Origin: Opitutales bacterium
Lineage (GTDB): Bacteria > Verrucomicrobiota > Verrucomicrobiia > Opitutales > UBA2995
Length of the DNA: 39,461 nucleotides
Reading direction: 5' to 3'
NCBI GenBank assembly: GCA_022824405.1
Contig: JAJDZZ010000050.1
Span: 1 to 39,461, forward strand
Shown in pieces: positions 12,199-33,370 of this stretch. Position numbers and translations under genes: made by a program. A model generated the notes under the pieces. That model was not told the DNA's origin. It searched no databases and was given only the letters and a program-made list of their open reading frames with translations. Every line of letters starts with the position of its first letter. The first letter of the stretch is position 1.

Positions 12199-12334
12199 AA
12201 AAGGGGTCAAACGTAGAAAATAGAATTTCCCTCAGTATCCCCCGTGCTCAAACGGCAAACTACCAGGGCCATCCCAACCGAATCACGATAGTAATCAGGA
12301 AGGGAAATTCTATTTTCTACGTTTGACCCCTTTT
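12199..12334. repeat. Palindromic element A (RAYT-linked family)
   Basis: Two perfect 34-bp arms, 12199-12232 and 12301-12334, begin AAAAGGGGTCAAACGTAG and end in the reverse complement. They enclose 68 bp that include the 24-bp block GGGCCATCCCAACC/GAATCACGAT at 12266-12289. The interior runs in the opposite orientation to copies B, C and D. It lies 9 bases after the stop of the plus-strand propeller gene and 14 bases from the stop of the convergent ATPase gene, where its hairpin could act as a two-way terminator. Confidence 0.9.
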
Positions 12335-15917: not shown

Positions 15918-16151
15918 CCCGCATGTCTACCTACCGAACGAATGCGATATCTCCCAATTTTCTGCTGCGCTCCGGGGCGGAGGAAGGGGTCAAGCCTGAA
16001 TGGCGCTTAGTTAAGCGTGTTTGTAGAGGAATTTTGTATGGACGCCATTCGGGTCAAGCCTTGAATCGGTTGACTCCGCAAGCTGCGTCAAGATTACATG
16101 GCATGACCCCGAGGCCAGCGCTCGCTACGAATTTTGTGAGACATGCTTGTT
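15916..16151. repeat. Repeat family R2, copy 1
   Basis: Starts AACCCGCATGTCT, with ACCGAACGAATGCGATAT and CCCAATTTTCTGCTGCGCTCC following, and ends CTACGAATTTTGTGAGACATG. The left end and the right end (reverse complemented) share GCATGTCT. The interior carries a GGGGTCA (15986-15992)/TGACCCC (16104-16110) inverted pair and a GAATGGCG/CGCCATTC pair, suggesting a nested palindrome. Copy 2 at 17607-17807 shares the ends but not the interior. The first two bases are part of the upstream gene's stop codon. Confidence 0.75.
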
Positions 16152-16177
16152 AACCTTTGGTAAACCTTGATCAAAAA

Positions 16178-17606: not shown

Positions 17607-17807
17607 AACCCGCATATCTCACTTACCGAGCGAATGCGACATCACCCAATTTTCTACTGCGCTCCGGTATGTCGGCACTGGTGGGGATTTCCCTGGATTC
17701 GGGACTTTGCAGGGTGTCGACCCGGCTTCACCCCCGAATCTGCACGAAACCCCCGCCAGCACTCGACCTCCGTTCGCTCGTCACGAATTTTGTGAGATAT
17801 GTGGGTT
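17607..17807. repeat. Repeat family R2, copy 2
   Basis: A 201-bp unit with terminal inverted repeats AACCCGCATATCTCAC (17607-17622) and GTGAGATATGTGGGTT (17792-17807), 15 of 16 matching. The left end continues TTACCGAGCGAATGCGACAT and CCCAATTTTCTACTGCGCTCC as in copy 1, and the right end has CGTCACGAATTTTGTGAGAT. The interior differs from copy 1. It begins 10 bases after the aldehyde dehydrogenase stop and ends 37 bases before the next start codon. Confidence 0.8.
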
Positions 17808-17844
17808 AAACCCCATTTTTCCATCTACCGACAGAAGCATTCCC

Positions 17845-25011: not shown

Positions 25012-26024
25012 AATATTAATTGGTCGAGTTCCTCCTTGCTCAGGTTTATGTTTGCCGCTTCCAGGATCTCGGGGATGCGGTGAGGCTTTGCCGTGCCAAT
25101 GATGGGGTAAACGGGCATCGGTTGGTTTAATAGAAATGCGAGCGCTATCTGATTGGCGGTCACCCCGCGTTTTTCCGCGATCGACGCGGCTTGTCGGAGG
25201 CGTTGACGGTTCAAAGGGGAGTCGTATTTCGGTCCTCCCAAGGGGGCAGATCCTTCAAACCCGCCCCGCATCCAGGCGACATTGCGTTCGCTGAAGTACC
25301 CTGTCGCCTGTGATGTATAAGGGATCACGGGGAAGTGGTTTTCCACATGCCATTGCAGGGCTGTGTCGTCCATGGCGAGTAAACCCGGTACCGGGGTAGG
25401 AGGCCAGTTCGGTTTGGCCAGGCTCCAGTTCGGTTGGCTCGCTACAAATCCGGATAAACCGGTTTTTTCGGCGTATGCGTTGGCCGCCTCGATTCGTGCC
25501 GTGGTCCAATTGGATGCGGCAATACGCTTCACGCGCCCATCCCGGATAAACGCGGCAAGTGTCCCGATTATTTCCTCTACCGAGCGATGGAGGTCATCCA
25601 TGTGAAGCCAATACATATCAATCTGCTCAATACCCAGGCGTTCGAGACTCTCACTGAGGTCCTGTTCCAATTCCGCCGATGACAAGCGCGGATGGTCCAA
25701 ATCGTCCACTTTGGGGTGGCCGCCCTTTGTCCCGACGATTACCTGGTCCCGGATCTTCCGGTCCCGAAGCCAAGCCCCCACGGTGCGCTCGCTCATTCCC
25801 GAGCCTCGGGGATGCCAGTCCGCATAAAAGTGTGCCGTATCGATCAGTCTGCCCCCGTGTTCGAAAAAGGCATCCATTACCGCAAAGCTGGTTGCCCGAT
25901 CGTCTGAACTTCCGAAATGAGCCGTTCCCAGGCAAAAGGGGTCAAACGTAGAAAATAGAATTTCCCTTCCTGATTGCCATCCTGATTCGGTTGGAATGGC
26001 CCTGATTGTTTGCCGTTTGGACAC
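25008..26024 (-). CDS. Aldo/keto reductase with N-terminus replaced by palindromic element B
   Basis: An NAD(P)H-dependent aldo/keto reductase fold of about 305 authentic residues. Visible catalytic elements are the Asp and Tyr in GRLIDTAHFYADWHPRG, Lys in VIVGTKGGHP and His in MYWLHMDD, with a phosphate-binding-like end (YPIIGTAKPHRIPEILEA). The family usually begins a short way before the ICLGTAHFG strand. Here the codons before FCLGTAHFG are those of palindromic element B (to 25934), and the only in-frame ATG (26024) lies inside that element, giving an odd leader (MSKRQTIRAIPTESGWQSGR). Either the element now supplies the start, or the gene is 5'-truncated. The last codons overlap the GH2 start by 4 bases. 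In the locus it may reduce or oxidise a released sugar. Confidence 0.8.
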   Translation of the reverse strand: MSKRQTIRAIPTESGWQSGREILFSTFDPFCLGTAHFGSSDDRATSFAVMDAFFEHGGRLIDTAHFYADWHPRGSGMSERTVGAWLRDRKIRDQVIVGTKGGHPKVDDLDHPRLSSAELEQDLSESLERLGIEQIDMYWLHMDDLHRSVEEIIGTLAAFIRDGRVKRIAASNWTTARIEAANAYAEKTGLSGFVASQPNWSLAKPNWPPTPVPGLLAMDDTALQWHVENHFPVIPYTSQATGYFSERNVAWMRGGFEGSAPLGGPKYDSPLNRQRLRQAASIAEKRGVTANQIALAFLLNQPMPVYPIIGTAKPHRIPEILEAANINLSKEELDQLIL

Positions 26025-26067
26025 GGGAAACTTTGAGAAATTCTATTTTCTACGTTTGACCCCTTTT
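25934..26067. repeat. Palindromic element B (RAYT-linked family)
   Basis: Arms of 31 perfectly paired bases, 25934-25964 and 26037-26067, with the 24-bp interior block at 25979-26002 (two differences from copy C). It overlaps two genes: the right arm contains the TAG stop (26043-26045) and last seven codons of the transposase, and the rest supplies the leader codons of the aldo/keto reductase. Confidence 0.9.
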
Positions 26068-26981
26068 GGCATCTGTCTCATTGCCATCGTGATTCGGCTG
26101 GGATGGCCCATGTTGAGCCTTTTTGCCAGCCATGGATTTTTACAGGTTGTATGCTTTCGGGTTAATCGTGCCACCTCCATTTTCCAGGGCGACCCCTTCG
26201 GATCTGCTTCAATGTCTTTTTCTGTCTTCCCCAATTTTTTTAGTTCTTCACGAACAAAGCTGTCCCATTTCCTTTCATTGAGTTCTGCCAAATCCTGGCC
26301 TTCCCAATCAATACCGGAATGTTGCCTGTTGAGATCTTCTGACAATTCCTGTTTGGCTTTTTTGCTCCCGATAAACCAACCACGACAATAGCTGCGGTAA
26401 AGTTTGTCTGTATTTCGTGGATCGCTTTCTTCGGACAATTCCAGGTGCTTTTGGTAGATCTGCATTCCCCCGATGCTGTCCTCCACACCCAGCAGTGACA
26501 ATAGTACCTTGCGATTCAATGGTTTGCGAACCTTGTGCCGCCAGAATTTCGGGTAGCTGCTAAAGGTATATTGCTTAAGATGTTCTTTCTGGCAAAGTCC
26601 CGCCCTTGCCGGATTAAGGTGAATATAGTCTAATAATCCCAATAAAGAACGGTCCGGTTCTACGACCAAAGCTTTATACCGCCCCTGGAACACATGTCCG
26701 CGTTCTCCATGAAAACGGTTAAACCGAGTGGCAAAAGTGCTCTGCAACCACTGCATGCCCTCTACCAGGTTTGGGTGGGGAGTTTCCATAGCCAAATGGT
26801 AATGATTGCTCATGATCACATAGGCATATAAATTCCACTCACACCGTTCGACAGCTTCGAAAATGGTCTTTTCAAAAGCCTGGGTTGATTTGAAATCAAA
26901 AAAGAGATCCTTTCTGTAATTTCCCCGACTGATGACATGATAGACTGCTCCGGGAAACTCAATCCTCTGTTTTCTTGGCAT
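26043..26981 (-). CDS. REP-associated tyrosine transposase (RAYT, Y1/HUH family)
   Basis: A 312-residue single-strand DNA transposase of the IS200-like/RAYT group. The N-terminus PRKQRIEFPGAVYHVISRGN and KDLFFD segment are typical, the metal-binding HUH motif is NHYHLAMET (His60, His62), and the catalytic Tyr119 lies in LDYIHLNPARAG. A C-terminal extension of about 150 residues ends NPWLAKRLNMGHPSRIT, then MAMRQMPKGVKRRK. The last codons (PKGVKRRK and the stop) are encoded by the right arm of element B, and the GHPSRIT stretch by a 24-bp block that is also present inside every palindromic element. Intact length and motifs suggest activity is possible. Such enzymes act on hairpin-bearing REP sequences. 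It interrupts the minus-strand polysaccharide genes. Confidence 0.93.
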   Translation of the reverse strand: MPRKQRIEFPGAVYHVISRGNYRKDLFFDFKSTQAFEKTIFEAVERCEWNLYAYVIMSNHYHLAMETPHPNLVEGMQWLQSTFATRFNRFHGERGHVFQGRYKALVVEPDRSLLGLLDYIHLNPARAGLCQKEHLKQYTFSSYPKFWRHKVRKPLNRKVLLSLLGVEDSIGGMQIYQKHLELSEESDPRNTDKLYRSYCRGWFIGSKKAKQELSEDLNRQHSGIDWEGQDLAELNERKWDSFVREELKKLGKTEKDIEADPKGSPWKMEVARLTRKHTTCKNPWLAKRLNMGHPSRITMAMRQMPKGVKRRK

Positions 26982-27026
26982 AGAAGTGAGCGTGACCCTG
27001 CAACGGGGCAGTTGACAAGAAGCAAT

Positions 27027-27158
27027 AAAGGGGTCAAACGTAGAAAATAGAATTTCCCTTCCTCATTGTTATCGTGATTCGGTTGGGATGGCCCTGGTTG
27101 TTTGCCGTTTGGGCATCGGATACTGAGGGAAATTCTATTTTCTACGTTTGACCCCTTT
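27027..27158. repeat. Palindromic element C (RAYT-linked family)
   Basis: Perfect 33-bp arms at 27027-27059 and 27126-27158, with the interior block at 27071-27094. It lies 45 bases before the transposase start codon and 8 bases after the stop of the neighbouring sulfatase gene, so its hairpin may end sulfatase transcription and shield the transposase. Confidence 0.92.
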
Positions 27159-27166
27159 GGGTAACC

Positions 27167-28648
27167 CTACGGTCGCTTAGCCAGGTTTTCGGGCAAACCG
27201 GTTCCTGGAGGCGGAGGAGGACGGAGCAAGTGAGGCATGGCCTTCCCGGGCGCCTCTTTCTTCGGAAGCCACTTCCGGTGCTCGGCAATGACGCCGGCGT
27301 ACCGCGGATCACCGGCCAGGTTGTCGTGTTCCCAGGGATCGCTCAGGTGGTCGTAGAGTTCTTCATCGCCAGTGTTGTAACGGATGTAGCGCCAGCGTTC
27401 CGAGCGTACCGCATGATTGCCGGGGCCTTCATTCATCAGGGCAGGGCGAACCCATTTCCCGTCCGGATGTTTCAACAAGGGGACCAGGCTGAGCCCGTCG
27501 TTGTCTGCTTTTTGGGGAAGGCCCGCCAACTCGATCAGGGTAGGGTAGATGTCGATGAGGCCCACCGGCTGATCGATCCGACTGCCCGGAACTGAAACCC
27601 CGGGCGCCACAATGATGAAGGGCACGCGGTTGGCTTTTTCCCAAAGGGTAAACTTGACGCAGGTTTCCTTGTCTCCCAAGTGATAACCATGGTCGGCCCA
27701 GAGTACTACGATGGTGTTGTCGGCCCGACCGGTATCATCGAGTTTATCCAACAGGCGACCCACCATCTGGTCGGCATAATCTGAGGCTGCCTGATATGCC
27801 TGAACCATCCGAGGCAGGCTTCCGGGCGCCTCGCACGGTTGAACTGTCGTGTTGTCCCAGATCCAATACTCCTTGCGGACCATGCGCCGTGCCATGTCGC
27901 CCACGTCGTCCAAATCTCCCGCAGGCATGGGCGGCATCTGCAAAGTTGCAAAGGGGTAACGATCGAACGTATCCTGCGGCGCGTAGAAGGGGAGGTGAGG
28001 ATTAAAGATCCCAGCAGCCAGAAAGAGCGGTTTATCCCAGGATTTCTCCATTTGCGCTTCCACGTATTCGCACATGTCGTCATCGATCATCTTCCGGTCA
28101 TGCACGCCCCAATCGAAAGCGAGCGCTCCGAGACGAGGATTGGTCGGTTTCCTGTAACCGTTGTAGTTCTTATTCAAGCCGGGCCCGCGGATATCGAGTT
28201 TCTTGAAGAATTCCTGGAAGGCTGGCTTGCCTTTGGGCTCTTTTCCGGTGGGACCATGATGGAAAATTTTGCCGGCTCCACGTGTGGCGTATCCACCCTC
28301 CAACTCGAAGTATTTTGGGATGGTTACCGCATCCGGAATGATTTCCGCCCAGGCCGTCCGGTTTCCGTATACACCGGAAGTAGTGGGTCGGTAACCCGTC
28401 ATGATGGCGGTGCGGGAAGGATTGCAGCCCGGGGATGCACAGTAGGCCCGACTGAAAAAGGCGCCCCGTTCAGCCAGGCGCTTCAAATTGGGCGTCTGGA
28501 TCGGATTGCCCTCATCGAACAAGGTCGTCCAATCGTTCATGTCATCGATGGCGATGAAGAGGATGTCCGGACGATCCTTGGCGACCGAGAAAACGGTCAG
28601 TTCCAAAACGAAAAGAATGGTCAATTCAAGTGTGCGCATGAGTTTCAT
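27167..28648 (-). CDS. Sulfatase (iduronate-2-sulfatase-like), exported
   Basis: A 493-residue S1-type sulfatase that hydrolyses sulfate esters after conversion of Cys75 to formylglycine. The signature is CASPGCNPSRTAIMTGYRPT (C75-x-P-S-R79). Metal-site residues are visible in ILFIAIDDMNDW and VVLWADHGYHLGDKETCVKF. The DDMNDW start and HGYHLGD segment are typical of iduronate-2-sulfatase-like enzymes. An N-terminal hydrophobic helix (LTILFVLELTVFSVAK) suggests export to the periplasm. It starts 5 bases after the stop of the preceding sulfatase and is therefore in the same operon. Precise sugar and position specificity cannot be assigned. Confidence 0.95.
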   Translation of the reverse strand: MKLMRTLELTILFVLELTVFSVAKDRPDILFIAIDDMNDWTTLFDEGNPIQTPNLKRLAERGAFFSRAYCASPGCNPSRTAIMTGYRPTTSGVYGNRTAWAEIIPDAVTIPKYFELEGGYATRGAGKIFHHGPTGKEPKGKPAFQEFFKKLDIRGPGLNKNYNGYRKPTNPRLGALAFDWGVHDRKMIDDDMCEYVEAQMEKSWDKPLFLAAGIFNPHLPFYAPQDTFDRYPFATLQMPPMPAGDLDDVGDMARRMVRKEYWIWDNTTVQPCEAPGSLPRMVQAYQAASDYADQMVGRLLDKLDDTGRADNTIVVLWADHGYHLGDKETCVKFTLWEKANRVPFIIVAPGVSVPGSRIDQPVGLIDIYPTLIELAGLPQKADNDGLSLVPLLKHPDGKWVRPALMNEGPGNHAVRSERWRYIRYNTGDEELYDHLSDPWEHDNLAGDPRYAGVIAEHRKWLPKKEAPGKAMPHLLRPPPPPGTGLPENLAKRP

Positions 28649-28653
28649 GGTTC

Positions 28654-30057
28654 CTATTTCTCCCCTAAAACTTCAAAATCCTCAACACCCAGATAGTCGC
28701 GGTACCGTGGTGTGTCCCCGAGTTCAATCAGGTGATATTCAGCATCGAACAGCATCCCGGGTTCGCGGGAGTTTTCCGCAATTTCCCTGGCGTGATGGTT
28801 CAGGATTTCCTCCAGTTCAGCCACTAACCCAGGAAACTTTCCGGCCAGGTTTTTCATTTCCCCGATATCCGCGCTCAAGTCGTAAAGTTCGAACTTGCCT
28901 TTGGCTCCTCTAACCAGTTTCCAGTCGCCCCGTCTCAATCCATCGTTCTCGTAGAACAGTATGGGATGCTTGGATACGGCATCGGGTTTTCCCAGGAACA
29001 CATCCAGCGAATTGCGGCCATCGATGGTTCTATCCTCCGGTAGCTTTGCCCCTATCAATGCGGCCAAAGACGGAAGCACGTCGATGGATGGAACAATCTG
29101 GTCCGATCGATTTCCGGCAGGGATCGTCCCCGGCCACCAGCTTATGGTCGGCATACGGTTATGTCCTTCATAAACAGGGCCTCCCTTTCTTCCACGAAAG
29201 GGTCCGGCGCTCATTCCACCGGCGGGACCATTATCGGAGGTAAATAACACCAGCGTATTCTCCGCGAGATCAAGGTCCCGTATTTTATCCAATACCCGCC
29301 CCACCTGCGTATCGATCTCTTCCACCACGGCGCGGTGGATATTTCCTTCCGCCTTCTTGCCGATATCCATGCTGACGAAACGGGGACGGTGAACGCTGAC
29401 AAAGGGCAGATAGAGAAAAAATGGCTTCCGGTGGTTTTCGTCGATAAACCCAATTGCACGGTCGATGATGGAACGACAGAGCAGGGCCTGATCCATTCCG
29501 TCGCTCACATAAGCGACGATTTCTTCGTTTTGGATTACGGGTAGTGGCGTATACGGCTCTTTGGTGTGGCGATGCCCTTTCAGGTTTCCCGGCCACATGT
29601 CGTTCGAATAAGGAATTCCGTAGTACTCATCGAAACCCTGGCGAAGCGGCAGAAATTCCCACTGGTCGCCCATGTGCCACTTACCGAAAATCCCGGTTTT
29701 GTAGCCGACCGATTTCATGGCCTCGGCAATGGTCGTCTCCTCCGGATTGAGACCGCGCCTTTCACCCGGGAAACATACAGCTCCATCCATGCCGATCCGG
29801 TGCGCATAGACGCCCGTCATGAGGGCCGACCGGGATGGCGTGCAATTGGTGTTGGATACGTAGAAATGGGTGAGTCGATTCCCTTCCGCGGCCATTCGAT
29901 CCAGGTTCGGAGTCTGGTTGATCTCGTTTCCAAACGCCCCGATGTCCCCATACCCCATGTCGTCAATGAAGATAAGGACGACGTTGGGCTGGGCCGCCTC
30001 GGCTCCCAATGCCAGGAACAAACCCGGCAGGGCAAAGTTAAGTATCCATTTTTTCAT
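28654..30057 (-). CDS. Sulfatase (arylsulfatase A-like), exported
   Basis: A 467-residue S1-type sulfatase with signal peptide (KKWILNFALPGLFLALGAEA). The formylglycine motif is NTNCTPSRSALMTGVY (C72-T-P-S-R76). Metal ligands appear in VVLIFIDDMGYGDIG and LVLFTSDNGPAGG; YKTGIFGKWHMGD holds the Lys and His of the active site. Length is typical. The gene begins 25 bases after palindromic element D, which separates it from the upstream sulfatase, and is followed after 5 bases by another sulfatase gene. The element may uncouple the two halves of the sulfatase cluster. Substrate unknown. Confidence 0.95.
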   Translation of the reverse strand: MKKWILNFALPGLFLALGAEAAQPNVVLIFIDDMGYGDIGAFGNEINQTPNLDRMAAEGNRLTHFYVSNTNCTPSRSALMTGVYAHRIGMDGAVCFPGERRGLNPEETTIAEAMKSVGYKTGIFGKWHMGDQWEFLPLRQGFDEYYGIPYSNDMWPGNLKGHRHTKEPYTPLPVIQNEEIVAYVSDGMDQALLCRSIIDRAIGFIDENHRKPFFLYLPFVSVHRPRFVSMDIGKKAEGNIHRAVVEEIDTQVGRVLDKIRDLDLAENTLVLFTSDNGPAGGMSAGPFRGRKGGPVYEGHNRMPTISWWPGTIPAGNRSDQIVPSIDVLPSLAALIGAKLPEDRTIDGRNSLDVFLGKPDAVSKHPILFYENDGLRRGDWKLVRGAKGKFELYDLSADIGEMKNLAGKFPGLVAELEEILNHHAREIAENSREPGMLFDAEYHLIELGDTPRYRDYLGVEDFEVLGEK

Positions 30058-30081: not shown

Positions 30082-30213
30082 AAAGGGGTCAAACGTAGAA
30101 TTTAGAATTTCCCTTTCTTAAAGCCACCGTGATTCGGTTGGGATGGCCCAGGTTGTTTGTGGTTTGGGCATCGGATACTGAGGGAAATTCTAAATTCTAC
30201 GTTTGACCCCTTT
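30082..30213. repeat. Palindromic element D (RAYT-linked family), arm-covarying copy
   Basis: Perfect 33-bp arms at 30082-30114 and 30181-30213. The arm sequence is GTAGAATTTAG where copies A-C have GTAGAAAATAG, and the partner arm carries the matching change, so pairing is kept. The interior block is at 30126-30149 (one difference from copy C). It lies in the gap between two sulfatase genes of one operon. Confidence 0.92.
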
Positions 30214-30245
30214 GGGTATCCCTGGTACATGAGGAGAGTCAATGT

Positions 30246-32027
30246 TTACAACCGCCTCACACTGACATAGATGGCACTGCAGAGAGCATCTCCCTCGTCA
30301 TCGAAAAAAGTGGTTTCCAATTGCGTCCGGCCGGTCGGCAAACGAACCCGGAAACGGGCATGGGTATCGTCAGGACGGGTATCCATGGTCTGGTTTCTTC
30401 CCGCTATCTGCAATTCGGCCGAGGCAATGGGACGGGCGGCATCACCCAAGTCGCTCCGCTCAGGCCAGCCCTCGGTCAGTCGCTTGCCGGACTCCTTGGG
30501 CCAGCGTCGAAGCTCGATTTCGTACTCGCCGGCCCGATCCACAATTACATTCCAATAGCCCCGAGCGGTAGACTGGGATAAACCCCGCGGATTATCACAG
30601 TAATCTCCCACCCAGTCCTGAGCATAGAGTGTCATTGGATTGGAAGCCTCGTGTCCGATCGTAATCCAGCGCGGGAGGTCAAAGAGGTTCTTCGCTTCGG
30701 CATACCATGCTTCGTAGTGCTGCTTCATCGCCGTGAAGACCTGAGGATGATCGGCGGCAACGTCCTTCTGCTGTCCGGGGTCTCGACCCAGATGATAGAG
30801 TTCGAGCTTCGCGTTAGGATCCTGGGGCCGCCTTCCTTGCTTGGGTTTGAGGAGCCGCCATTGATCCCACAGGACCACCGCCGGGTCCCACGGCGATCCG
30901 GAGGTACGATACTGCACCACCAATTTTCGGTCCGGCAGATTCGTGGAGGTTCCCTTGATCAGGCCGGCCAGGCTGAGGCCGTCGAAGGCCATTTCGGTCT
31001 CGTTCTTCAATCCGCACAGGTCAATCAAGGTGGGCAGCAGATCCTGAACCTGTGTGAGTTCATCGACGCTGGTGCCATGGGCAAGTTTGCCGTCAGGCCA
31101 ACGAACCATGAGCGGAACCCGGTGCCCGCCCTCGTAGACGCTCGTCTTCTTATCGCGCATGCCGTAGTTGAAGATCTTCATTGCCCCCGTGCTCTGGGTG
31201 CCATTGTCCGTCATATAAATGAGGATCGTGTTTTCTTTGAGATTTCGATTCTCCAGGAAGGCTTCCAGCTTGCCCAGGTTTTCGTCCAGGTTGGCAATCA
31301 TTCCGTAAAACTTTGCCGGTATCGTTTTGCTGTCGTGGCGACCTTCGTAGGGGTCGGAATAGGCATCGGCTACGATATCCGGAACGTGCGGGGTATTGGT
31401 AGCCAGATAAGCGAAAAAGGGTTTGTCAGCGTTAGCCTGACCATCGATCCAACGCATGGTTTCGCCAAAGAAGATATCGGTGCAATAACCCTTGTAGCGT
31501 TTATCCACTCCATTGTGCGAAAGCACCGGATCGAAGTAGGCGTCGGTATGGTTCTCCCAGTGATCGGCCAAGGAAGTGATTCCCCAGGCGCGGTGATGAA
31601 GGGTTTCCTGAAACCCCCGGTCCTGGGGTCGGTGCGGATAACTGTCTCCCAAATGCCATTTGCCGAAGTGTCCGGTGGCATAGCCGGAATCGGCAAAAAA
31701 ATTGGCCATGGTGGGCAGGTCCGCGCGCATCATGGAACGGCCCTGGCAAACCGCCGTGCACCCGTTGCGCATGGCGTCGAGGCCCGTCATGAGTTGTCCC
31801 CGCGTCGGCGAACACATGGGCGCGACATGAAAGTCCGTAAAGGAAACACTCTGCTCCCTGAAGGTGTCCAGATGCGGAGTCTTCAGCACCGGACTGCCAT
31901 GGGCGGAAACATCTCCGTAACCCTGATCGTCGGTAATGATCAGAATGACATTGGGACGGTCAGCTGCGAAGAGGGGAGTGAGCAGGCTTCCTGCTAAAAG
32001 GAATAGCGTCCAAAGTCTTTTAGTCAT
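30246..32027 (-). CDS. Sulfatase with C-terminal accessory domain, exported
   Basis: A 593-residue S1-type sulfatase from the ATG at 32027, chosen because it starts a signal peptide (KRLWTLFLLAGSLLTPLFAA) and overlaps the upstream stop as ATGA; a longer frame to 32072 exists. The formylglycine motif is APMCSPTRGQLMTG (C72-S-P-T-R76). Other active-site segments are VILIITDDQGYGDV, ATGHFGKWHLGD and LIYMTDNGTQSTG. After the catalytic and C-terminal subdomains (to about residue 460) it carries about 130 extra residues (YWNVIVDRAGEYEIELRRWP and on), a beta-rich accessory module likely to be a binding domain. Coupled with the sulfatase upstream. Confidence 0.95.
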   Translation of the reverse strand: MTKRLWTLFLLAGSLLTPLFAADRPNVILIITDDQGYGDVSAHGSPVLKTPHLDTFREQSVSFTDFHVAPMCSPTRGQLMTGLDAMRNGCTAVCQGRSMMRADLPTMANFFADSGYATGHFGKWHLGDSYPHRPQDRGFQETLHHRAWGITSLADHWENHTDAYFDPVLSHNGVDKRYKGYCTDIFFGETMRWIDGQANADKPFFAYLATNTPHVPDIVADAYSDPYEGRHDSKTIPAKFYGMIANLDENLGKLEAFLENRNLKENTILIYMTDNGTQSTGAMKIFNYGMRDKKTSVYEGGHRVPLMVRWPDGKLAHGTSVDELTQVQDLLPTLIDLCGLKNETEMAFDGLSLAGLIKGTSTNLPDRKLVVQYRTSGSPWDPAVVLWDQWRLLKPKQGRRPQDPNAKLELYHLGRDPGQQKDVAADHPQVFTAMKQHYEAWYAEAKNLFDLPRWITIGHEASNPMTLYAQDWVGDYCDNPRGLSQSTARGYWNVIVDRAGEYEIELRRWPKESGKRLTEGWPERSDLGDAARPIASAELQIAGRNQTMDTRPDDTHARFRVRLPTGRTQLETTFFDDEGDALCSAIYVSVRRL

Positions 32028-33370
32028 TTTCTCTTTATCATTTTGTAATTGATATGCTCTTCCTGATCCCATCCGAGCCGTTCGAAATATCCATCCAGGT
32101 TGCCACGCAGCAGAGCCGCTTTTTGGGGTAATTTTCCGATCAGGTTTTTCTGTTCTCCCAGGTCATCCCAGAGCGACCAAAGGTGCTCCTTGCCGCTGCC
32201 GATATCCCGCAGCAACTTGTACCTGTCCTGTACGATGGCAACATCGAGATTGCCCTGTCGCTTGGTGTAGCGGAAAACCATAAAGGGATCCTTTCTCTCC
32301 ACGCTTCCCGTTCCGCCATTTTCACAGAGCGAGAGAAGACTTCCTCCTTCCACACCTTCCGGAATGTGATCGGTTGCACCCGCCATATCGAGAACCGTCG
32401 GCAGGATGTCCCAGCCAACCACCGGCACCCGGGAACTCTTTCCAGCCGGAATTCCCGGACCGCTTATAACAAAGGGTACGCGCAGACCACCTTCACTGAT
32501 CATGTATTTGTGTGAGAGAATGGGATACGCTTTGTGATAGGTGCGCTGCTCAACCGGCTTCCATTGATCGACTTTGCTCTCATAGCCGTTGTCGGCGGTG
32601 TAGATAAAATAGGTGTTCTCCCGGATGCCCAACTGCTCGACCGTTTCCACAATGCTTCCGATGGCCATATCCATGTCCTCATGCATGGCAGCCCATAGAG
32701 CCGAGTTTTGGTACTGCGTCGCTTTATCCTTCCTCGCCTCGTACTTCTTTATCGTTTCAGGCAGGGCCATGTACTTCAGGTGGTTGGCATAAAAGGAAAC
32801 CTGGACGAAAAAAGGATGACCATCGGCTACTTGGCGGGTCATAAAATCGTTGGTTTTTCGGGCGAGGGAAAACGTCAATTTGGGATCGTCGGGCGGACAT
32901 TGATTCCCCTCCGCGTTCATGGTTTGCCCGTCACTCTCGTCATAGCCAATGTCCTCCGGCGTGCGGGTGCGCTGATGCCACTTTCCAAAATGGGCCGCCC
33001 GGTATTCGGGCCAGGCGGCTTTCAGGCGGGAGATCATGGCGTCCGAAGGCGGAGGCAGGTTCGTGGGCAATGCCTCGGCAAACTTCCCCACCATCGAGGG
33101 CGATTGTCCGTACTGAATGCTGGTACGGGTTGGCCCGCAGGTGGGCGCCGGCGAATAAGCCATGGAAAAACGCACTCCCGATAATGCCAGCTTCGAGCTA
33201 TGGGGTGTTTGATAGAACGCACTCCCCGAACCGTCGATTTCCGGATCGGCCGGTATATCCAATGCATTCCACCCGGTATCGTCCAGCAGGATGAAAACGA
33301 TGTTGGGTCTTTCCGCGGCAAGGACGACCGAGAACACGAAAAATAATACAAGACTGATCAGGGATTTCAC
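32024..33370 (-). CDS. Sulfatase, exported
   Basis: A 448-residue S1-type sulfatase with signal peptide (KSLISLVLFFVFSVVLAA). The formylglycine motif is SPAPTCGPTRTSIQYGQSP (C78-G-P-T-R82), and RPNIVFILLDDTGWNALD and YFIYTADNGYESK hold metal ligands. AHFGKWHQ supplies Lys and His. The Y-G-Q after the motif, where many sulfatases have T-G, is slightly unusual. It starts 18 bases after the GH32-like gene's stop and overlaps the next sulfatase by 4 bases, so these three are one operon. Specificity unknown. Confidence 0.95.
   Translation of the reverse strand: MKSLISLVLFFVFSVVLAAERPNIVFILLDDTGWNALDIPADPEIDGSGSAFYQTPHSSKLALSGVRFSMAYSPAPTCGPTRTSIQYGQSPSMVGKFAEALPTNLPPPSDAMISRLKAAWPEYRAAHFGKWHQRTRTPEDIGYDESDGQTMNAEGNQCPPDDPKLTFSLARKTNDFMTRQVADGHPFFVQVSFYANHLKYMALPETIKKYEARKDKATQYQNSALWAAMHEDMDMAIGSIVETVEQLGIRENTYFIYTADNGYESKVDQWKPVEQRTYHKAYPILSHKYMISEGGLRVPFVISGPGIPAGKSSRVPVVGWDILPTVLDMAGATDHIPEGVEGGSLLSLCENGGTGSVERKDPFMVFRYTKRQGNLDVAIVQDRYKLLRDIGSGKEHLWSLWDDLGEQKNLIGKLPQKAALLRGNLDGYFERLGWDQEEHINYKMIKRK

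Follow-up and report, generated by a model that had tools for sequence, protein, structure and literature searches.

The TIRYT locus and its palindromic elements

The window analysed here, a stretch of 39,461 bp corresponding to contig C22 of an Opitutales genome (G000), carries on its minus strand a gene for a TIRYT or RAYT-like Y1 (HUH) transposase (26043-26981; 312 aa), together with four palindromic mini-elements. Two of these flank the gene: E2 (25935-26066, minus strand, 132 bp) overlaps its 3' end, and E3 (27027-27158, minus strand, 132 bp) lies 45 bp upstream of its start codon. E1 (12200-12333, 134 bp) is found on the plus strand, as defined by the strand on which its gene-like tail is read, and E4 (30082-30213, minus strand, 132 bp) shows an AATTTAG variant in both arms. 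These positions agree within a base or two with those given for the gene and the elements in a preliminary description of the locus, and the long near-perfect arms reported there are perfect over 33 bp in E1, E3 and E4 and over 32 bp in E2. Next to the TIRYT locus lie four adjacent genes (27167-28648, 28654-30057, 30246-32072 and 32024-33370), whose translations appear sulfatase-like by eye. A repeat of ~160 bp at 17648-17808 (also 16119-16153 and 17775-17809), which has more than 30 copies of 78-87% identity in G001, a genome of the same genus, apparently represents a separate dispersed repeat family.

The transposase matches the Y1_Tnp domain (PF01797, E = 4.7e-11), and its H60-x-H62 and Y119 residues are invariant in a set of 82 relatives that includes the window gene. 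It scores 67.5 bits against the model of REP-associated tyrosine transposases (NF047646, REP_Tyr_transpos; cut-off 80) and 20.3 bits against the IS200 model (cut-off 55), and it gave no match to a Pfam helix-turn-helix family. The gene is the only close copy in its genome, all other Y1 genes being at most 36% identical.

Read along the gene strand, the locus comprises E3 (left arm, interior, right arm), a leader of 45 bp (26982-27026, minus strand) that resembles the leader of the nearest relative, L060 (TTGTCAACTGCCCCGTTGCAGGGTCACG versus TTGTCAGCTTCCCCGTTCTTGGGTCACG), the gene itself and finally E2 (left arm, interior, right arm). The outermost arms (27126-27158 and 25935-25967) form a perfect inverted pair of 33 nt, each belonging to a complete element. 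The proximal arms of E3 and E2 occupy the places at which relatives carry their single arms, yet in inverted orientation, and no separate native arm remains at the locus. With the proximal E2 arm in place of a native one, the gene ends with codons from the left arm of E2, which provides the residues KGVKRRK and the TAG stop codon (26043-26067, minus strand). The earlier claim that the arm encodes the last residues and the stop thus stands, with the qualification that this arm, in gene orientation, is inverted relative to the one that follows the shared block within an element. The arm sequence GGGGTCAA fits seven of the eight positions of the motif GGGGWSAS, and GGGGTCAG, found in many relatives, fits it completely.

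An element family that shares the tail of the transposase gene

A block of 24 bp in the interior of E3 (27071-27094) recurs with a single mismatch at 26086-26109 within the TIRYT gene, exactly as described previously, and we find that the similarity widens to 43 bp with 84% identity, covering a segment of the gene tail (26073-26115, minus strand) that encodes the RLNMGHPSRITMAMRQ region. Allowing up to three mismatches, the 24-mer has five matches in the window, as opposed to none in 100 shuffles. Without its arms, the E3 interior aligns with the 3' end of the gene in the same orientation (score 53; shuffle maximum 24), and the E4 interior aligns with the L060 unit, again in the same orientation and adjoining the arm (score 41; shuffle maximum 26). 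When read in the gene frame, which is open in 11 of 12 elements, the elements encode Q/R-GHPNRIT..IRKGNSIFYV, followed by a TGA stop codon within their own right arm; the reported difference between GHPSRIT in the gene and GHPNRIT in the elements, a Ser/Asn exchange in the same frame, is indeed present. That the left half of the interior might stem from the leader was also considered and rejected, as its alignment with the leaders of the units gave no significant score.

The genome-wide count of arms proposed in the preliminary description, made by means of searches, returned 32 arms, corresponding to 16 dispersed elements next to one close transposase gene, in a draft assembly (3.39 Mb, 92 contigs, 96% complete) that may hide further copies. 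All of these arms are paired, with no solo arm among them. Twelve elements measure 131-134 bp, whereas one of 152 bp and three of 115-125 bp reflect other deletions within the interior. Mean pairwise identity reaches 97.3% in the arms but only 74.7% in the interiors. At two variable positions inside the arm, both sides change together in five of five cells, a value matched by none of 500 shuffles, so that arm symmetry is kept; it may reflect selection for pairing, conversion or descent from symmetric parents, explanations among which five cells from few lineages do not discriminate. As single-stranded DNA, E3 is predicted to fold with -39.1 kcal/mol (z -11).

Several observations concern the element boundaries. 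The sequence GGGTAACCC abuts the end of E3 (27159-27167, plus strand) and GGGTATCCC that of E4 (30214-30222); one or the other abuts one end of five GGGGTCA elements, including those on contigs C54, C88 and C68 of G000. The sequence TTTGGGTWWCCC occurs ten times in the whole genome, five times at these element ends, which might reflect a target preference or an extended element end. Across 22 candidate elements at 21 places in G000 and G001 (one with two right ends), the inverted symmetry runs into the unique flanks for a mean of 3.36 bp, compared to 2.39 bp in mismatched pairs (permutation p 0.0008), as if the elements occupied small palindromes or symmetrised their own flanks. Inspection by eye revealed no target-site duplication at the elements.

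In the sister species represented by G001, no element is present at the sites equivalent to those of E1 and E4, with exact empty-site junctions obscured because the intergenic DNA has diverged. Together with the dispersal of the copies, these two species-specific absences suggest that the elements have been mobile. G001 still holds element relics, one of which (on its contig C88) reads CHPSRIMSAMR followed by a stop codon, and contains no close TIRYT at E<=1e-30, a situation consistent with earlier mobility in trans and with the disappearance of the enzyme.

It is conceivable that the elements now serve mainly as host features, such as bidirectional terminators or hairpins stabilising mRNA, and that their link to the gene is merely ancestral. 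E1 lies 10 bp past a stop codon between converging genes, and elements in another genome of the order (G307) abut gene ends, in line with such a role. However, it would leave unexplained both the contrast in conservation between arms and interiors and the presence or absence of elements between species. We therefore regard it as unlikely as the main explanation, although it would be compatible with an origin of the elements by internal deletion of a transposon.

Terminal repeats and gene ends across the order

A search of 373 genomes of the order detected relatives of the window transposase in 109 of them at E<=1e-20. Among the 84 relatives with enough flanking sequence, 70 are bounded by inverted repeats with a score of at least 15, while 445 shuffled comparisons peak at 13. 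These repeats are single arms that differ among units, their outer ends having GGGGTCA in common. The stop codon lies within the right repeat of 42 of the 70 repeat-flanked relatives, and in 29 of these 42, according to our reading of the flank table, the TGA of TGACCC serves as the stop. In this order, the terminal repeat of a unit thus often supplies the codons for the C-terminal residues of its transposase. Three units from another family with 59% identical transposases (L163, L165 and L166) have arms, AAAGGGGTCAAACGTA(G)AAAATAGAAT, that match the element arms exactly or almost exactly.

These flanks also bear on the possibility that the elements are strict REPINs, that is, pairs of oppositely oriented, GTAG-tagged REPs that a domesticated RAYT mobilises. 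The family does resemble REPINs in its paired inverted arms, its single transposase gene, its dispersed intergenic copies and its long hairpin. Its arms, however, are not individual hairpins ending in GTAG, the arm motif of the relatives is GGGGTCA, mostly without GTAG, the window transposase does not reach the cut-off set for the REP-associated family, and relatives bear single arms as terminal inverted repeats (TIRs). A strict REPIN identity thus appears very unlikely. The RAYT-REPIN pairing invoked in the preliminary description is thus not an exact classification, the arms being TIRs of the GGGGTCA type rather than GTAG-tagged REPs.

The nearest relative (L060, the same unit as L041, in genome G004) is 77-83% identical and frameshifted. 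It forms a single-armed unit with arms AAGGGGTCAAACGTAGAATATAGAAT at both gene ends and a tail reading GHPSRITAAMRQQ up to its stop codon. Its 3' end reads ...GGGCCATCCCAGCCGGATCACTGCGGCAATGAGGCAGCAATAATTCTATATTCTACGTTTGACCCC, and E3 reads ...GGGCCATCCCAACCGAATCACGATAACAATGAGGAAGGGAAATTCTATTTTCTACGTTTGACCCC on the same strand; the two share the block, the distance between block and arm (to within one base) and the orientation of the arm. The block encodes the motif W284..L289-N-M291-G292-H-P294-S-R-V/I297-S/T298, which is conserved among the 82 relatives (G292 99%, W284 99%, L289 94%, M291 85%), even though these range from about 36 to 83% identity and mostly belong to genomes without such elements. 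In a structural model that is weak overall (mean pLDDT 49.2; about 68-81 locally), helices are predicted at residues 265-277, 282-288 and 295-303, and the block would fall within this three-helix C-terminal unit, compatible with the helix-turn-helix reported for the subclass (PMC6006769).

The conservation of this motif identifies the block as ancestral transposase sequence and therefore marks the elements as descendants of the gene rather than as the source of its tail. The opposite scenario, in which the gene captured its tail from an earlier palindromic repeat that was later recruited as coding sequence, had been left open by the preliminary description. It does apply to the final seven codons, since KGVKRRK is encoded by an element arm, so that an element has donated codons to the window gene. 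For the block itself, it is contradicted by the conserved motif, making tail capture highly improbable as a general account. Chance or convergence can be dismissed altogether, with nothing in its favour, no match in 100 shuffles, and the same register and orientation repeated in an independent genome.

Some units of the order are rearranged. L187 (contig C1 of G091) and L191 (contig C1 of G163) are tandem duplications of a TIRYT, extending from the left flank to inside the gene tail, with shortened upstream copies. For the tandem genes in G091, the first of which ends with KGVKRKI and a stop codon in the left arm, insertion into the tail was considered and rejected in favour of tandem duplication because the left flank AAGATAA is shared. 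Partial tandem duplications of repeat ends are seen beside single-armed units at L049, L052, L055, L058 and L163.

Palindromes conforming to a strict pattern (AGGGGTCA, 60-120 bases, TGACCCCT) are present in 31 of the 373 genomes, with reversed-pattern controls being rare. Those tested from G307, G267, G343, G331 and G313 share only arms with their TIRYTs and lack the tail, and two elements of G190 match their TIRYT solely through repeated arm sequence. A general rule of tail-bearing palindromes is therefore unsupported, and we consider the tail-bearing elements lineage-specific. The anticipated identity of tail and repeat in related genomes is borne out by the register of L060 but not by the palindromes of these five genomes. 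In the scheme of PMC10969869, most other palindromes of the order would count as type II MITEs. In G307, all listed arms but one are paired, and one single-armed unit is present; a comparison of this genome with G231 yielded no usable junction for an empty site. The elements of G307 (L224-L227, L259-L277) and G343 (L232, L233) share arms, with interiors that fail to align or have strongly diverged, and often have a nearly constant length of 83-85 bp. Many in G307 lie between gene ends, with TGA/TCA adjoining the arms. The arm sequence GGGGTCAAACGCAAAATGTTAACAT characterises a second palindromic family, 94-101 bp in length, which occurs in G000 (contigs C17, C55, C90 and C92; L120-L123) and G001 (contig C1; L124). 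No cognate transposase of this family was found in G000, and it gave no significant match to L045, the only unit with similar arms.

Origin of the elements and their relation to known systems

We propose, with a probability of roughly 0.86, that the elements are type I MITEs that arose from a TIRYT unit by internal deletion, consist of its left arm, its last ~15-20 codons and its right arm and presumably spread in trans. This reading bears out the suggestion that they were built from the gene's own tail, as the tail of L060/L041 runs directly into a right arm whose register is that of the elements. The ancestral unit would have comprised a left arm (AAAGGGGTCAAACGTAGAAAATAGAAT..), a short leader, the Y1 transposase gene and a right arm whose TTTGACCCC supplied the TGA stop codon. 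When nearly the whole gene was deleted, its last ~15-20 codons would have remained, joined to the left arm through a short spacer and followed by the right arm, the coding tail being retained because the gene's end runs into the edge repeat. The resulting units of ~132 bp may subsequently have spread through trans-mobilisation by the TIRYT; by analogy with related enzymes, this transposase could recognise a long single-strand hairpin formed by the arms.

On this reading, the window TIRYT is a surviving relative of the parent rather than the parent itself, given the Ser in its tail at the position of the Asn of the elements. The direct parent would have been an intact unit with the arm AAAGGGGTCAAACGTAGAAAATAGAATTTC and a gene ending in ..GHPNRIT..IRKGNSIFYV and a stop codon; no intact single-armed unit with exactly the ending IRKGNSIFYV was found, the frameshifted L060 being the nearest. 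The original 3' end of the window gene appears to have been replaced by the E2 arm, giving rise to the C-terminus KGVKRRK. Plausibly, each native arm received an element insertion at its inner edge, and the duplicate arm was then lost.

An origin of REPIN-like palindromes from RAYT-type transposases has been proposed before but rarely seen directly. With a fossil of the last transposase codons in matching register and orientation, the elements directly support, at the level of sequence, an origin by internal deletion in the TIRYT branch. It is also possible, albeit rather doubtful, that in this order the TIRYT C-terminus is locked to its own right repeat, which would both mark the transposon end and encode the last residues and the stop codon. 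If so, repeat and protein end would have to change together, a coupling that could help to drive diversification into many repeat-specific transposases, with tail-bearing palindromes as a natural by-product of deletion. The roughly 70 single-armed units with recognisable ends from one order provide a basis for testing end recognition, arm co-variation and the placement of stop codons in repeats.

Among known systems, IS200/IS605 elements share with the window transposase the Y1_Tnp domain, the HUH motif and the catalytic tyrosine. Their ends are subterminal hairpins without TIRs, whereas TIRYT units are bounded by TIRs, and the match to the IS200 model is below the cut-off. Compared with type I MITEs, the elements differ in that the related transposase is a single-strand HUH Y1 enzyme rather than a DDE enzyme and in that no target-site duplication is apparent. 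They are otherwise short, TIR-bounded and devoid of an intact transposase, and they share their interior with an autonomous unit, in line with the definition of type I prokaryotic MITEs as non-autonomous, TIR-bounded elements whose interior is common with the autonomous element (reviewed in PMC10969869). REPINs have been proposed to arise from the ends of an IS200-like element (Bertels & Rainey, 2011; PMC3116915). The family resembles the REPIN/RAYT system in its paired inverted arms as the mobile unit and in having one transposase per family. It differs in that its arms end in AAAGGGG/CCCCTTT rather than consisting of GTAG-tagged REPs, its ends are TIRs, a coding fossil is kept, and 16 elements are present instead of the about 100 or more copies per genome typical of REPINs.

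The gene and its relatives have the architecture of TIRYTs and TIRtrons, described by Di Nocera et al. (2013; PMC3733652) as RAYT-like Y1 genes with long TIRs carrying the motif GGGGWSAS, with TIRs that also occur as dispersed dimers and repeats overlapping the gene 3' end noted as '3'ov'; this architecture corresponds to subclass 2.1 in PMC6006769. As in that system, the transposases analysed here combine a Y1 HUH domain and its tyrosine with long inverted repeats, found in 70 of 84 relatives, what appears to be a GGGG(W)(S)A-type motif and dispersed dimers, but the window gene is enclosed by a pair of complete dimers instead of by single TIRs. The accessible parts of PMC3733652 and PMC6006769 describe neither dimers with a coding tail nor a stop codon formed by the TGA of the repeat. 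A repeat coding for the end of its own transposase, initially noted as not known to be described, is not wholly without precedent; TIRYTs with dispersed dimers, type I MITEs and an origin of REPINs from transposon ends have been published (PMC3733652, PMC10969869 and PMC3116915, respectively). Relative to these systems, and as far as the open-licence literature reaches, with earlier description elsewhere being possible, the novel features are thus the coding fossil in the elements and the recurrent placement of the stop codon within the repeat.
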